Source of the DNA: an uncultured Neglectibacter sp.
GTDB lineage: Bacteria > Bacillota > Clostridia > Oscillospirales > Acutalibacteraceae
Assembly (NCBI GenBank): GCA_947647615.1
Contig: CANSKS010000002.1
Coordinates: 1-64,000, forward strand
Reading direction: 5' to 3'
Length of the DNA: 64,000 nucleotides
Position 1 is the first letter of the stretch. Each line of letters begins with the position of its first letter. A program made the translations under genes and the position numbers. The notes under the pieces are model-generated. The model ran no database searches. It was not told the origin of the DNA and was given only the letters and a program-made list of their open reading frames with translations. Positions 3,285 to 42,328 of this stretch are shown here, piece by piece.

Positions 3285-3661
3285 GGGCACACCGCCTTCG
3301 CTTGAGTTTTTTTGGAAAGAGGCCGCAATCATGATTTTTCTATACCGAATCTGCTTCCATCAAAGGAGAAAAATTCCTTTCACATCGGTGGCACGAAACG
3401 CATTGTGGCTCACAGCGGCACAGGAAGCCTATTAGCTTTTCATTTTCGAATGCGGCAACACTCAATCCATACTGTATAAGTCAGGAATATCGTGCGCCTG
3501 TGGTAGGTCTCTTACATATTGCCGTTTATCATTATAGTTTGCAAGGGCGATTTCCATTGCTTCCTTAAGGTGCCTTTTTCAAAATTTAACCGATTTCAGG
3601 AATAATGAAAAAGGAATCGTACAAAACGAAAATCTGCCCTCTTACGAGGACAGATTTCTAT
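3285..3661. other. Intergenic region with possible gene debris
   Basis: No complete gene is seen. On the minus strand 3557-3462 reads a 31-codon frame (begins MEIALANYND, ends PDLYSMD). In another frame nearby, VAAFENEKLIGFLC recalls the central strand of a GNAT acetyltransferase. This could be a decayed acetyltransferase gene; the evidence is weak. Confidence 0.25.
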
Positions 3662-3663
3662 TT

Positions 3664-3740
3664 TGGTGGGGATAACAGGACTCGAACCTGTGACCTCCTA
3701 CGTGTGAAGCAGGCGCTCTAACCAGCTGAGCTATACCCCC
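3664..3740 (-). tRNA. tRNA-Val (anticodon CAC)
   Basis: A 77-base cloverleaf. The acceptor stem is GGGGGTA/TATCCCC with encoded CCA. The D arm is GCTCAGCTGGTTAGAGC. The anticodon stem is CCTGC/GTAGG with loop TTCACAC, giving anticodon CAC. The T arm is ACAGG-TTCGAAC-CTGT. It reads GUG valine codons. Confidence 0.96.
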
Positions 3741-38396: not shown

Positions 38397-38492
38397 ATGG
38401 AAATTTCCGGAGGACACAGGAGTCGGGGCAGCCGGGCCTTGGCAGCCTGTAAACGGGAAGCACAGCAAGAAGAAAGGAAAGATATATGCTAA
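38397..38492 (+). CDS. Possible leader peptide upstream of nrdD
   Basis: A 31-codon frame between the nrdD promoter and nrdD. GGGGAAAGG stands 8 bases before its ATG. The peptide is basic and ends KDIC; its stop TAA overlaps the nrdD start codon region by 7 bases, a layout that would allow translational coupling. No known peptide was recognised, and chance is possible. Confidence 0.3.
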   Translation: MEISGGHRSRGSRALAACKREAQQEERKDIC

Positions 38493-40783
38493 AAAGTATC
38501 GTGAAAAGGAGCGGGGAAAAAGTATCTTTTGACCCGTCAAAAATCAGGGCCGCTATTTTTAAAGCCAATGTGAGAATCGCCACCGAACGGTTCAGCGACG
38601 AGGAATTGGACCGGCTCACCGGGGAAGTGGTAGCTCAGCTGGAGACTTTAAAAAAGGTCCCCACTGTAGAGCAGATTCAGGACATTGTGGAAGAAAAGCT
38701 CATCCAGGAGGACTATGCGAAAACCGCCAAGGCCTACATCCTTTACCGGGCCGAGCACCAGAAGATCCGGGAAATGGATGACGAGCTGGTGAAAATTTAT
38801 TCTGCGCTGACCTTTGTGGCGGCGGAAGACGTGGACCTGAAACGGGAAAACGCCAACATCAATGCCGATACCGCCATGGGGACCATGCTGAAATACGGCT
38901 CCGAGGGCGCCAAAAGCTTTTACGACAAATATGTGATTCCCGCCCACATTGCCAAGGCCCACGGGGATGGCGATATCCACATTCACGATAAAGATTTTTA
39001 CACCCTTACAGAAACTTGCTGCCAGATCGACCTGTTAAAGCTTTTCCACGGCGGGTTTTCTACCGGCCATGGGTATTTGCGGGAGCCCCAGGACATTCGC
39101 AGCTACGCGGCCCTGGCCTGCATTGCCATTCAGGCCAACCAGAACGAAATGCACGGGGGGCAGAGTGTCCCCATTTTCGATTATGCTATGGCCGAAGGAG
39201 TGGACAAGACCTACCGGAAGGAATATTTCAAGGCTCTCATTGAGTTTTTTAGGATTTTCAAAGCCATGCCTTACGACGACGCGGAGGCCATGGTTTCTTC
39301 CGCCAGGGAAGCCCTGGGGGAAAAGGTGACCATGGACCGGGTGGAGGAATATAGCGCCGGGCTCGAGGAATACCTGCCTCGGCACCAAAGGGAAAACGGC
39401 TACGAGGAGATCACCTGGGAAGAGGCGGCGGATGCCTGCCGCTATGCCCAAGACACGGCCTGGCGGGAAACCGACGAGGCCACAAAACAGGCCATGGAAG
39501 CCCTGGTGCACAACCTGAATACCATGAATTCCCGGGCCGGGGCCCAGGTTCCCTTTTCCTCTTTGAATTACGGCACCGACACCTCTCCCCAGGGCCGCAT
39601 GGTGATCCGCAACCTGCTTTTGGCCACCGAGGCCGGCTTGGGCGACGGGGAAACCCCCATTTTCCCGGTGCAGATCTTCAAGGTAAAGGAAGGGGTTAAT
39701 TACACGGAGGAGGACCCGAACTACGATTTGTTCAAGCTGGCCATGCGGGTTTCGGCCAAGAGGCTGTTCCCAAATTTCAGCTTTATCGACGCTCCCTTTA
39801 ACCTGAAATACTATAAGCCCGGCGATTACGACACAGAAGTGGCCTATATGGGTTGCCGCACCCGGGTGATGGGGAATGTCCATGACCCCAAGCGGGAAGT
39901 GACCTGCGGCAGGGGGAACCTGAGCTTCACTTCCATCAACCTGCCCCGTATTGGCATTGAGGCCAAGGGGGATATCAAGAAGTTCTACGAGATTTTGGAC
40001 CAACGCATAGACCTTTGTGTAGAGCAGCTTTTGCACCGCTTTAAAATTCAGTGCAGCAAAAAGGCCTACAATTACCCCTTCCTCATGGGCCAGGGGGTGT
40101 GGATCGATTCCGAAAAACTGGACCGGAATGACTCCGTGGCAGAGGTGTTAAAGCACGGTACCCTTTCCATTGGCTTTATTGGCCTGGCGGAAACCTTAAA
40201 GGCACTCACCGGCAAGCATCATGGAGAAAGCCAGGAAAGCTATGACCTGGGCTTGGAGATCATCACCTATATGAGAAAGCGCATGGATGCGCTTTCTAAA
40301 GAGCACAGCCTGAACTTCACCCTGCTGGCCACTCCCGCCGAAGGGCTTTCCGGCCGGTTTGTACGCATAGACAAAAAGAAATACGGGGAGATCCCCGGCG
40401 TTACCGACCGGGAATATTACACCAACTCCTTCCATGTGCCGGTGTACTACCCTATCGGCGCCTTTGAGAAAATTAAAAAAGAGGCGCCCTTCCATGCCCT
40501 TACCAACGCCGGGCATATCAGCTATGTGGAGCTGGATGGGGACGTGTGCAAGAATATCGACGCCTTCGAGAGCATTATCCGCTGCATGAAAGAGGAAGGG
40601 ATTGGGTATGGTTCTGTAAATCATCCGGTAGACAGGGACCCTGTTTGCGGGTATAATGGGATTATTGGAGAGGTGTGTCCAAGGTGCGGGAGACATGCGG
40701 GAGAGGGTGTGCCCCTTTCCAAGCTCCAGGAGCTGCGGAAAAAATACCATGACGTGCCGGACTATTCCTGCATGATTCATTGA
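38486..40783 (+). CDS. nrdD: Anaerobic (class III) ribonucleotide reductase, large part lacking the glycyl-radical loop
   Basis: A 765-residue NrdD that reduces ribonucleoside triphosphates to deoxynucleotides without oxygen. An ATP-cone allosteric domain (1-93) begins VKRSGEKVSFDPSKIRAAIF. The ten-stranded barrel includes DGDIHIHDKDFYTLTETCCQ and NEMHGGQSVPIFDYAMA. Near the end lies the cysteine-rich metal region DPVCGYNGIIGEVCPRCGRH, after which fused relatives continue into the glycyl-radical loop. Here the frame instead adds a 29-residue tail (starting AGEGVPLSKL, ending YSCMIH) and stops. The radical loop is encoded by the next gene. Expression is from a strong promoter with an NrdR box. 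Confidence 0.93.
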   Translation: MLKSIVKRSGEKVSFDPSKIRAAIFKANVRIATERFSDEELDRLTGEVVAQLETLKKVPTVEQIQDIVEEKLIQEDYAKTAKAYILYRAEHQKIREMDDELVKIYSALTFVAAEDVDLKRENANINADTAMGTMLKYGSEGAKSFYDKYVIPAHIAKAHGDGDIHIHDKDFYTLTETCCQIDLLKLFHGGFSTGHGYLREPQDIRSYAALACIAIQANQNEMHGGQSVPIFDYAMAEGVDKTYRKEYFKALIEFFRIFKAMPYDDAEAMVSSAREALGEKVTMDRVEEYSAGLEEYLPRHQRENGYEEITWEEAADACRYAQDTAWRETDEATKQAMEALVHNLNTMNSRAGAQVPFSSLNYGTDTSPQGRMVIRNLLLATEAGLGDGETPIFPVQIFKVKEGVNYTEEDPNYDLFKLAMRVSAKRLFPNFSFIDAPFNLKYYKPGDYDTEVAYMGCRTRVMGNVHDPKREVTCGRGNLSFTSINLPRIGIEAKGDIKKFYEILDQRIDLCVEQLLHRFKIQCSKKAYNYPFLMGQGVWIDSEKLDRNDSVAEVLKHGTLSIGFIGLAETLKALTGKHHGESQESYDLGLEIITYMRKRMDALSKEHSLNFTLLATPAEGLSGRFVRIDKKKYGEIPGVTDREYYTNSFHVPVYYPIGAFEKIKKEAPFHALTNAGHISYVELDGDVCKNIDAFESIIRCMKEEGIGYGSVNHPVDRDPVCGYNGIIGEVCPRCGRHAGEGVPLSKLQELRKKYHDVPDYSCMIH

Positions 40784-40826
40784 AAATAAAGAAAATTTAA
40801 AACCGGAAATAAAGGAGGAACTTACC

Positions 40827-41018
40827 ATGACAAAAGCCGCTGTAAAAAAAGGAACCAGAAAACCCAGTAAAAAAGAGCAGGAAATTTTAATTGGCGAAGG
40901 CCGGGATTTTGAGCGGATCCGCCGCATCACCGGTTACCTGGTGGGCACCATCGACCGCTGGAACAACGCCAAACGGGCCGAGGAGCAGGACCGGGTAAAG
41001 CATACGCTGAGCCATTGA
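40827..41018 (+). CDS. Separate glycyl-radical domain of class III ribonucleotide reductase
   Basis: A 63-residue protein. Residues 1-25 are a Lys-rich extension (MTKAAVKKGTRKPSKKEQE). Residues 28-60 match the C-terminal end of NrdD: FERIRRITGYLVG followed by RWNNAKRAEEQDRVKH. In NrdD the glycine of this RxxGYL-type motif carries the catalytic radical installed by NrdG; here it would be Gly36. AAAGGAGG stands 8 bases before the ATG, so it is made as its own polypeptide and must dock into the large subunit. It lies 43 bases after nrdD and 3 bases before surE. The functional split is inference from sequence. Confidence 0.85.
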   Translation: MTKAAVKKGTRKPSKKEQEILIGEGRDFERIRRITGYLVGTIDRWNNAKRAEEQDRVKHTLSH

Positions 41019-41021
41019 GGG

Positions 41022-41765
41022 ATGAGGATATTACTTGTCAACGACGACGGGGTTCATTCTCCCGGCCTTCGGGAGCTGGCGGCGGGACTGGCGGAAAACC
41101 ACCAGGTGACTGTGGCGGCACCAGACCGGGAACAAAGCGCCGTAGGCCACGGCATTACCATGCGGACGCCCTTGCTGGTGCAGGAATTTGACCTGGGCCC
41201 AAAGGTCCAGGCCTACGGGGTGGCCGGCACACCGGCAGATTGTACCCGCCTGGGGCTTTATGCCTTCACCCGGGGCCAGGTGGACTTGGTGATCTCCGGC
41301 CCCAACCGGGGCACGAACCTTTCTTTGGATATTCTGTATTCCGGTACGGTTTCCGCCGCGCTGGAAGCGGCCATGCTGGGCTATAAGGCCATTGCCCTTT
41401 CCGCGCCTTCGGAGGCAGATGAAAAAGCGGTGACAGCCTGCTTCCTTTCCCTTTTGGCACAGCTGGATGTGGGAAGGGATATCCAAAAGGTGTTGAATGT
41501 CAATATTCCGGCCCTTCCCCCCGAAGAGATGAAAGGGGTAGTGTGGACGGCTCAGGGGTCGAAGGCCCGGTGGCGCGATCGCTACGAGCGGCGGGAAGCC
41601 CCCTTGGGGGGAACCTACTATTGGCTGGACAGCGGGTCCTTTTTGGAAAAATATGACGAAGACACCGATGTGGGATGTTTGGAGGAAGGGTATATTACCT
41701 TGACGCCGCTGACCTTTCTGCTCACAGATCCGGAGGGGTTTTCCGGAAAAAAGTTTACATTGTAA
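41022..41765 (+). CDS. surE: 5'/3'-nucleotidase SurE
   Basis: A 247-residue SurE-family metal-dependent phosphatase that removes phosphate from nucleoside monophosphates. Landmarks are ILLVNDDGVHSPGL (Asp pair binding metal), VAAPDREQSAVGHGIT, VDLVISGPNRGTNLS (metal-binding Asn) and YSGTVSAALEAAMLG. Length is standard. It begins 3 bases after the glycyl-radical gene, so it is part of the nrd transcript, a sensible link between nucleotide pool functions. A terminator follows directly. Confidence 0.95.
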   Translation: MRILLVNDDGVHSPGLRELAAGLAENHQVTVAAPDREQSAVGHGITMRTPLLVQEFDLGPKVQAYGVAGTPADCTRLGLYAFTRGQVDLVISGPNRGTNLSLDILYSGTVSAALEAAMLGYKAIALSAPSEADEKAVTACFLSLLAQLDVGRDIQKVLNVNIPALPPEEMKGVVWTAQGSKARWRDRYERREAPLGGTYYWLDSGSFLEKYDEDTDVGCLEEGYITLTPLTFLLTDPEGFSGKKFTL

Positions 41766-41812: not shown

Positions 41813-41830
41813 TAAAAAGGAGAGATTGTG

Positions 41831-42328
41831 ATGAATCTAAAAATTTCCGGTATTGTGGCGGAATCTATTGTAGACGGGAAGGGAATTCGTTATACGGTGT
41901 TTACCCAGGGTTGTCCCCATGGATGTCCCGGATGCCATAACCCCCAGACCCACGATTTTGAAGGGGGGCGATGGGTCACGGTGGAAGAGCTGTTCCGAGA
42001 ATTCCAAAAAAATCCCTTGCTGAAAGGAATCACCTTTAGTGGGGGAGAACCATTTTGCCAGCCGGAGCCTTTGACGGAGTTGGCAAGGTTGGTCCATGGC
42101 ATGGGGAAGGATGTGACGGTGTTTACCGGCTGGACCTATGAACAGCTGCTGGAAAAGGAAGATCCTGCGGTTTTGGCCCTTTTGGAGGAGACCGACCTGC
42201 TCATTGACGGTCCCTTCCTGGAAGCCAAAAAAAATTTGGAGCTGACCTTTCGGGGCAGCGAAAACCAAAGGCTGATCGATATGAAAAAGACCAGGGAAAA
42301 GGGAATCCCGGTCTTGCTGGAGGAATAA
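41831..42328 (+). CDS. nrdG: Anaerobic ribonucleotide reductase activase (radical SAM)
   Basis: A 165-residue radical SAM enzyme that uses a 4Fe-4S cluster and S-adenosylmethionine to make the glycyl radical on NrdD. The cluster motif is CPHGCPGCH (CxxxCxxC) near residue 28, preceded by VDGKGIRYTVFTQG. SAM-binding GGEP occurs in ITFSGGEPFCQPE. The C-terminal LLIDGPFLEAKKNLELTFRG is typical of NrdG. Length is standard. ATG at 41831 follows AAAAAGGAGAG. In this genome its substrate glycine lies on a separate small protein. Confidence 0.95.
   Translation: MNLKISGIVAESIVDGKGIRYTVFTQGCPHGCPGCHNPQTHDFEGGRWVTVEELFREFQKNPLLKGITFSGGEPFCQPEPLTELARLVHGMGKDVTVFTGWTYEQLLEKEDPAVLALLEETDLLIDGPFLEAKKNLELTFRGSENQRLIDMKKTREKGIPVLLEE

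Follow-up and report, generated by a model that had tools for sequence, protein, structure and literature searches.

A predicted two-chain class III ribonucleotide reductase with its glycyl-radical segment on a separate gene in an uncultured Neglectibacter

Ribonucleotide reductase (RNR) is an essential enzyme. In the available text of the literature on its class III form, the radical glycine appears only as part of the catalytic chain. Among the papers that full-text searches of openly accessible journals listed, none describes a split NrdD or an NrdD spare part in its title or abstract opening. In a stretch of 64,000 nucleotides from an uncultured Neglectibacter sp. (positions 1 to 64,000 of contig CANSKS010000002.1; hereinafter, the window), nrdD ends before the glycyl-radical loop, which is encoded by a small gene downstream. 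Is this pair an enzyme with a detachable radical subunit, as an earlier note on the window had proposed, or is the small protein a spare part, one half of a product that is joined after all, or the remains of a broken gene? The best reading, strongly supported by the comparisons below, is that the small protein would act as an obligate trans-acting glycyl-radical subunit.

The locus and the position of the break

The features of the locus are the following.

38486..40783, plus strand: nrdD core without the radical loop, 765 residues (ATP-cone at residues 4-92, barrel, zinc-site region)
39854-39856, plus strand: codon of NrdD Cys457, in the barrel (active-site cysteine loop MGCRTR)
40697..40780, plus strand: 28-residue C-terminal tail of NrdD, AGEGVPLSKLQELRKKYHDVPDYSCMIH; relatives carry similar tails
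40811..40818, plus strand: ribosome-binding site of the small gene, AAAGGAGG, read from the sequence
40827..41018, plus strand: putative separate glycyl-radical subunit, 63 residues, ATG start (NRDD profile positions 531-562)
40932-40934, plus strand: codon of the radical Gly36 of the small protein (motif RRITGYLVG)
41022..41765, plus strand: open reading frame (ORF) between the radical subunit and nrdG, which we take to be surE-like from its start, MRILLVNDDG
41828..42328, plus strand: nrdG, radical SAM activase (TIGR02491, 146.5 bits against a cut-off of 126.1)

The two genes are in different reading frames, with 43 nt between the nrdD stop and the small-gene ATG, and the NrdG activase expected of a class III RNR is encoded nearby. 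NrdD ends in CGYNGIIGEVCPRCGRH followed by the tail, and cysteines 721, 731, and 734 make up its zinc-site region. The earlier note was correct that the protein stops after the metal-binding region, although it gave the tail 29 residues where we count 28. The small gene does have a ribosome-binding site of its own, as had been claimed. The Lys-rich N-terminal extension ascribed to its product is present in the window but varies among relatives and is not a general trait; the steadier element ahead of FERIRRITGYLVG in the small proteins is (V/I)GEG or a close variant.

The PF13597 (NRDD) profile has 562 positions, of which NrdD covers 1-530 and the small ORF 531-562, so that the pair fills the profile exactly once. 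NrdD scores 637.8 bits against PF13597 and 79.9 bits against the ATP-cone in the Pfam search and exceeds the cut-off of NF005497, and the NCBIfam NrdD models are split at the same point as the Pfam model. The glycyl-radical loop is therefore located not in the chain of the NrdD core but on the 63-residue protein. The division of NrdD into two genes is real, with the PF13597 halves in adjacent genes and the same split in all searched members of the genus.

The best solved relative is the NrdD of Prevotella copri (8P23), to which the core encoded in the window can be aligned as far as chain position 706; chain positions 707-738 are matched by the small protein. Chain positions and published numbers differ by four residues by our count, and this offset sets Gly36 as Gly711 and Cys457 as Cys416; the radical glycine is thus Gly36 of the small protein, as first suggested. 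The residue pairs across the break are Gly36/Gly711, Tyr37/Tyr712, Arg44/Arg719, Cys457/Cys416, and Glu619/Glu581. All five P. copri residues are named in the available text of PMC11226230 as linking the radical loop, the active site, and the flap, and their matches in the window indicate that partner residues have been retained in each of the two chains. The loop MGCRTR around Cys457 aligns with the cysteine loop of 8P23, and C457, C721, C731, and C734 are invariant in an alignment of 16 split NrdDs. There is a fourth cysteine in the zinc region of 8P23 (RCLDCGY), whereas the window protein and its fused relatives have an Asp there (RDPVCGY).

The break falls within the glycyl-radical domain, leaving the zinc site on the core and the loop on the small protein. 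The one-chain P. copri enzyme has the same domains and active-site residues, but, going by the available part of PMC11226230, its zinc site and glycyl loop form one domain of one chain. Fused NrdDs from neighboring genera (21 of the loci L003-L024 and 30 of 75 named loci) are close to the window NrdD and have a near-identical FERIRRITGYLVGT segment, but consist of one chain, and neither a tail nor a second gene is present at that position. According to the accessible text of PMC12662201, the glycyl-radical domain flips out for activation and then returns, and such flipping would make a detached version mechanically reasonable.

Distribution of the split and of other ribonucleotide reductases

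All 25 genomes of the genus sample (the window's own and 24 others) have the split, with a core that ends at profile position 530/531 and a separate radical match; two of them have the core only as fragments. The radical match is within 1 kb of the core in 24 genomes and on another contig in G394. Close relatives share the split, which is thus not the loss of a fusion in a lone strain, and the identical arrangement in 25/25 genomes excludes chance. No other NrdD core was found in 22 of the 25, and PF02867, the class I/II RNR large subunit, was absent from all of them (0/25), although many of the sampled genomes are MAGs, in any single one of which a second RNR could be missed. These counts suggest that the split enzyme very probably works, and, with neither an intact NrdD nor another RNR found in the 22 genomes, the proposal of a detachable radical subunit is strongly supported in the form of an obligate partner. 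Completeness is 90% or more in 16 of these 22, and another feature of the set is that G393 consists of one contig; an intact NrdD is also kept in the other three genomes of the sample (G371, G378, and G389). The window's genome, a 94-contig assembly, contains no second intact nrdD, in line with the earlier proposal: its contigs gave no other NRDD match and no class I/II large-subunit match. Overall, the split is found repeatedly among gut bacteria and in phages, and genomes with it often yield no RNR besides the pair.

Extra copies of the radical gene are also found in G375, G389, G391, and G393. An additional partial NRDD match in G377 was rejected as an NrdD core, as it is the end of a PHP-like protein; this 401-residue frame (L343; G377:C2:168188-168418) has a PHP-domain-like start and an end resembling the zinc and radical-loop region of NrdD (CPVCGEPVFDTYQRIVGYLVP).

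At the family level, 17 of the 100 sampled genera are split. The small ORF is adjacent in 16 of these 17 loci as read by script, and the seventeenth (L037) was found to be split on a separate reading. Five of the 17 genomes have a second NrdD (G077, G002, G040, G006, and G054), and four have a PF02867 match (G095, G068, G055, and, weakly, G078). Neither a second NrdD core nor PF02867 was detected in eight, of which six are at least 90% complete. We considered G081, G054, and G078 as fusions via a long linker and rejected this, since the ORFs are separate and in the same frame. L076 (G052) belongs to another NrdD subtype, and its frame runs, by inspection, into a thioredoxin/glutaredoxin-like domain (CPNCKIACAML).

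At the order level, 95 of 98 genomes have an NRDD match, and in 25 of the 95 the core ends at 530-540. Every one of these 25 has a separate radical gene: 21 are adjacent in the rows listed, those of G361 and G326 are remote, the halves in G349 are at contig edges, and the gene in G343 is adjacent on a reading of the DNA, with two more copies elsewhere. Of the remaining 70 genomes with NRDD, at least 9 have a separate radical gene, and the association between a truncated core and a separate radical gene (25/25 versus at least 9/70) has a Fisher P of ~1e-15. The extra G343 copies (L321 and L322, on G343:C12) are of the short type, and a recombinase-like ORF is found near L321, as in prophages. 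L344 (G349:C54) and L345 (G323:C3) are NrdD-like but end at profile position 502, lacking both the zinc site and the radical loop; a split NrdD is present in their genomes as well.

Across the phylum, NRDD was found in 102 of 119 genomes, seven of them truncated, and five of the seven have a listed radical match. G164 and G207, which belong to one genus, have a radical match below the Pfam cut-off, located in a 102-residue ORF between nrdD and nrdG. Two further NrdD subtypes are also split, judging from their C termini (L307/L308 and L313/L314); the small ORFs of L313/L314 read SRVVG(F/Y)L. Two-piece NRDD matches within one frame of 964-1209 residues (G192:C4, G213:C110, G221:C43, and G206:C21) look as though NrdD were interrupted by a large in-frame insert, for instance an intein. 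Plasmid hits in Clostridioides and Monoglobus were set aside, being annotated as full-size NrdD.

Not all radical genes adjoin their nrdD. In named genomes, 575 stretches were confirmed, of which 80 were listed; 75 of the C termini of these 80 were read by script, and five were left unread. The 75 comprise 35 split loci, 30 fused loci, and 10 that have no radical ORF alongside, one of these lying at a contig end. A cultured species with the split is Scatolibacter rhodanostii (L181). We searched 12 genomes that lack an adjacent radical ORF (nine of these 10 plus three of the unread), and the radical gene was on another contig in 11. The exception, G148, has a truncated locus for which no separate radical gene was found, but also an intact NrdD of another type. 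Seven of the 12 (G142, G143, G144, G145, G151, G152, and G153; completeness not given) yielded neither a further NrdD core nor PF02867. The same combination with a remote radical gene occurs in G361 (99% complete), G326 (100%), and G187 (99%); by its coordinates, G151 is G361 again. With no other RNR found in these remote-partner genomes, deoxynucleotides seem makeable only if the small protein acts in trans. Their truncated cores often end in a remnant like ERIRRI, just ahead of the lost TGYLVG. An apparent read-through match in G143 proved to have no decayed radical loop in the DNA past the stop. At about positions 3410-3685 of G145:C5 (L291), a stand-alone radical protein is frame-broken; the genome has two other copies.

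Stand-alone copies and alternative explanations

The reading that competes best, though we judge it improbable, is that the small protein is only a spare part, which repairs an oxygen-cleaved NrdD in the manner of GrcA/YfiD and is not an obligate subunit. GrcA/YfiD of Escherichia coli and Y06I of phage T4 are autonomous glycyl-radical proteins for pyruvate formate-lyase (PFL); going by the available text of PMC8683613, only the PFL spare parts have been validated and others are speculated. The likeness noted earlier holds in that each is a small separate protein (63 residues in the window) carrying the C-terminal glycyl-radical segment of a larger enzyme, can be phage encoded, and has an extra N-terminal region before that segment. 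It does not extend to the sequence family: GrcA/YfiD belong to PF01228 (Gly_radical), whereas the window protein belongs to NRDD (PF13597) and gave no PF01228 match at an E value of ≤0.1. Furthermore, the large enzyme in the window differs in having no radical loop of its own, which would make its small partner obligate.

Genomes with an intact NrdD plus a stand-alone copy fit a spare part. There are 7 among the 100 family genomes and at least 9 among the 98 order genomes (including G314, where NrdD is broken over contigs), in addition to G158 and G159. Among 18 stand-alone loci, which include L054, for which no NrdD is known, 3 have a homologous Crp/Fnr-type regulator adjoining the radical gene, and one of the three, in G159, also has a flavodiiron-type protein; such a regulator adjoins the gene at none of 16 remote-partner loci. 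The regulator is weakly suggestive of oxygen control of the stand-alone copies and is the only hint, a weak one, at replacement after oxygen damage. In L328, L329, and L331, which are also stand-alone radical proteins, the N-terminal region differs (MYDRDIINPDNLD...) and represents another type of extension.

Viral contigs point in the same direction. There, 349 of 473 candidate stretches were confirmed, and among the best 80 of the 349, the 78 that were read are all open frames of 84-161 residues, most with an N-terminal domain of ~50 residues. When 42 of the best 80 records were searched with NRDD, the small protein was alone in 37; because viral records are fragments, the absence of NrdD there is weak evidence. 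The other five also hold an NrdD core without a radical loop, in the order nrdD, small gene, nrdG (nrdG by inspection). When neighbors were sampled at eight viral loci, four of the loci hit named phage families (an integrase, two tail proteins, and a clamp loader), two match only families of mostly unknown function, and two have no match. A viral record (L174) and a contig of Anaerovibrio slackiae (L301; G154:C10) both have 55741 bases and identical small-gene coordinates, which suggests that this element is probably carried by a host that itself has a split NrdD. Adjacent small proteins with an N-terminal domain of ~50 residues are found in Selenomonadaceae (A. slackiae L188, Anaerovibrio RM50 L197, Megamonas L206, and Schwartzia L201); this domain in L197 was the one compared with Pfam, and no family matched there.

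Against repair as the sole function, the window's genome and most of its genus have no intact NrdD to repair and no other detected RNR. The stand-alone copies may serve in repair, but repair could not account for everything that the small protein does in the window.

We consider it very improbable that a single protein is made after all, by programmed frameshifting, ribosomal bypassing, read-through, or protein trans-splicing. The ORFs are mostly adjacent and in order, and in L212, L250, and L048 they share a frame with one stop between them. However, the gap varies between 1 and 411 nt among 57 split loci, which include at least four genomes twice, and each of the three frames is represented (14, 21, and 22 loci); at several loci the ORFs are separated by two to ten in-frame stops. 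An SD-like sequence precedes 54 of the 57 chosen starts, versus 47 of 649 sampled ATGs, although the choice of starts favored SD. The radical gene is sometimes on another contig or has its own N-terminal domain of ~50 residues, and no intein-like ends were visible by inspection. Taken together, the frames, gaps, and remote copies strongly disfavor both frameshifting and decay.

Gene decay or an assembly error in this strain deserves hardly any weight: the many contigs of the window's genome and the remnant ERI.RI just ahead of the stop in Ruminococcus-like truncated NrdDs are compatible with it, but the identical break recurs throughout the genus in many separate assemblies, including the single-contig G393, both genes appear to be under purifying selection, the ribosome-binding site is good, and no other RNR was found. 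For the selection, the 32-codon radical segment of the window differs from those of seven distinct relatives (nine rows, two of them repeats) at 8-21 codons by synonymous changes only and at 1-4 by nonsynonymous ones. For the whole small gene, dN/dS against L178-L180 is about 0.12-0.17, imprecise values given that dS is near or above 1.

A proposed two-chain mechanism, its origin, and its meaning

On the evidence of these sequences, it is highly probable that the window encodes a two-chain class III RNR with the radical on a separate subunit, and this type of enzyme is real and widespread, and very probably dependent on its small chain as an obligate partner. The nrdD chain would supply the allosteric ATP-cone, the barrel, the active-site cysteines, and the zinc site, and the 63-residue protein would supply the glycyl radical. 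NrdG would abstract a hydrogen from Gly36. Docking of the FERIRRITGYLVGT segment into the barrel would bring Gly36 to Cys457, as happens with the C terminus of a one-chain NrdD; the helix and tail that follow (WNNAKRAEEQDRVKH) would hold the segment from outside. We infer the activity of the two-chain enzyme from the sequences. By analogy with GrcA/YfiD, a role in repair of oxygen damage is plausible; that the split has been retained so that the small part can be replaced after cleavage by oxygen is speculative. A precedent for a catalytic chain broken into two genes toward its C terminus is the split RNR NrdJa/NrdJb, which differs in having class II chemistry (available text of PMC9669993).

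The probable origin of the split is that either the 3' end of nrdD was duplicated or a stand-alone copy, often one borne by a phage, took over, after which the original loop was lost. In a tree of 38 NrdDs and two outgroups, for which the radical segment was left out, the split forms are intermingled with the fused ones, and at least 7 changes of the split label are required (shuffled mean, 12.9), a pattern compatible with one origin and later refusions as well as with several splits. The tails of split NrdDs resemble the GEGV-FERIRRITGY strand of their own small protein in 36 of 48 cases at P ≤ 0.05 and in 17 of 48 without the shared GEG part (window tail, P = 0.056). The tail is possibly a degenerate copy of the radical strand. 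This resemblance would tend to favor tandem duplication, with the first loop then lost, for the short type at least. Where the small protein has an N-terminal domain of its own, a stand-alone copy may rather have taken over.

A natural two-chain class III RNR would allow direct tests of radical installation on an isolated domain and of subunit exchange during turnover, and would let revival of an oxygen-killed enzyme by a swap of the small part be tested. The loci described here are a large candidate set for the question, left open in the available text of PMC8683613, of spare parts for other glycyl-radical enzymes; if proven, this would be the first such part beyond PFL. On balance, we favor the view that in Bacillota, some MAGs labeled Desulfovibrio(naceae), and many phages the radical of class III RNR may reside on a separate, exchangeable subunit, which would be an obligate partner for an NrdD that has lost its loop and a spare part, also phage delivered, for an intact one. 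It would be the class III counterpart both of GrcA and of the radical subunit in class I. The phage copies suggest that viruses may sustain the dNTP supply of their hosts with one gene of ~90 residues.
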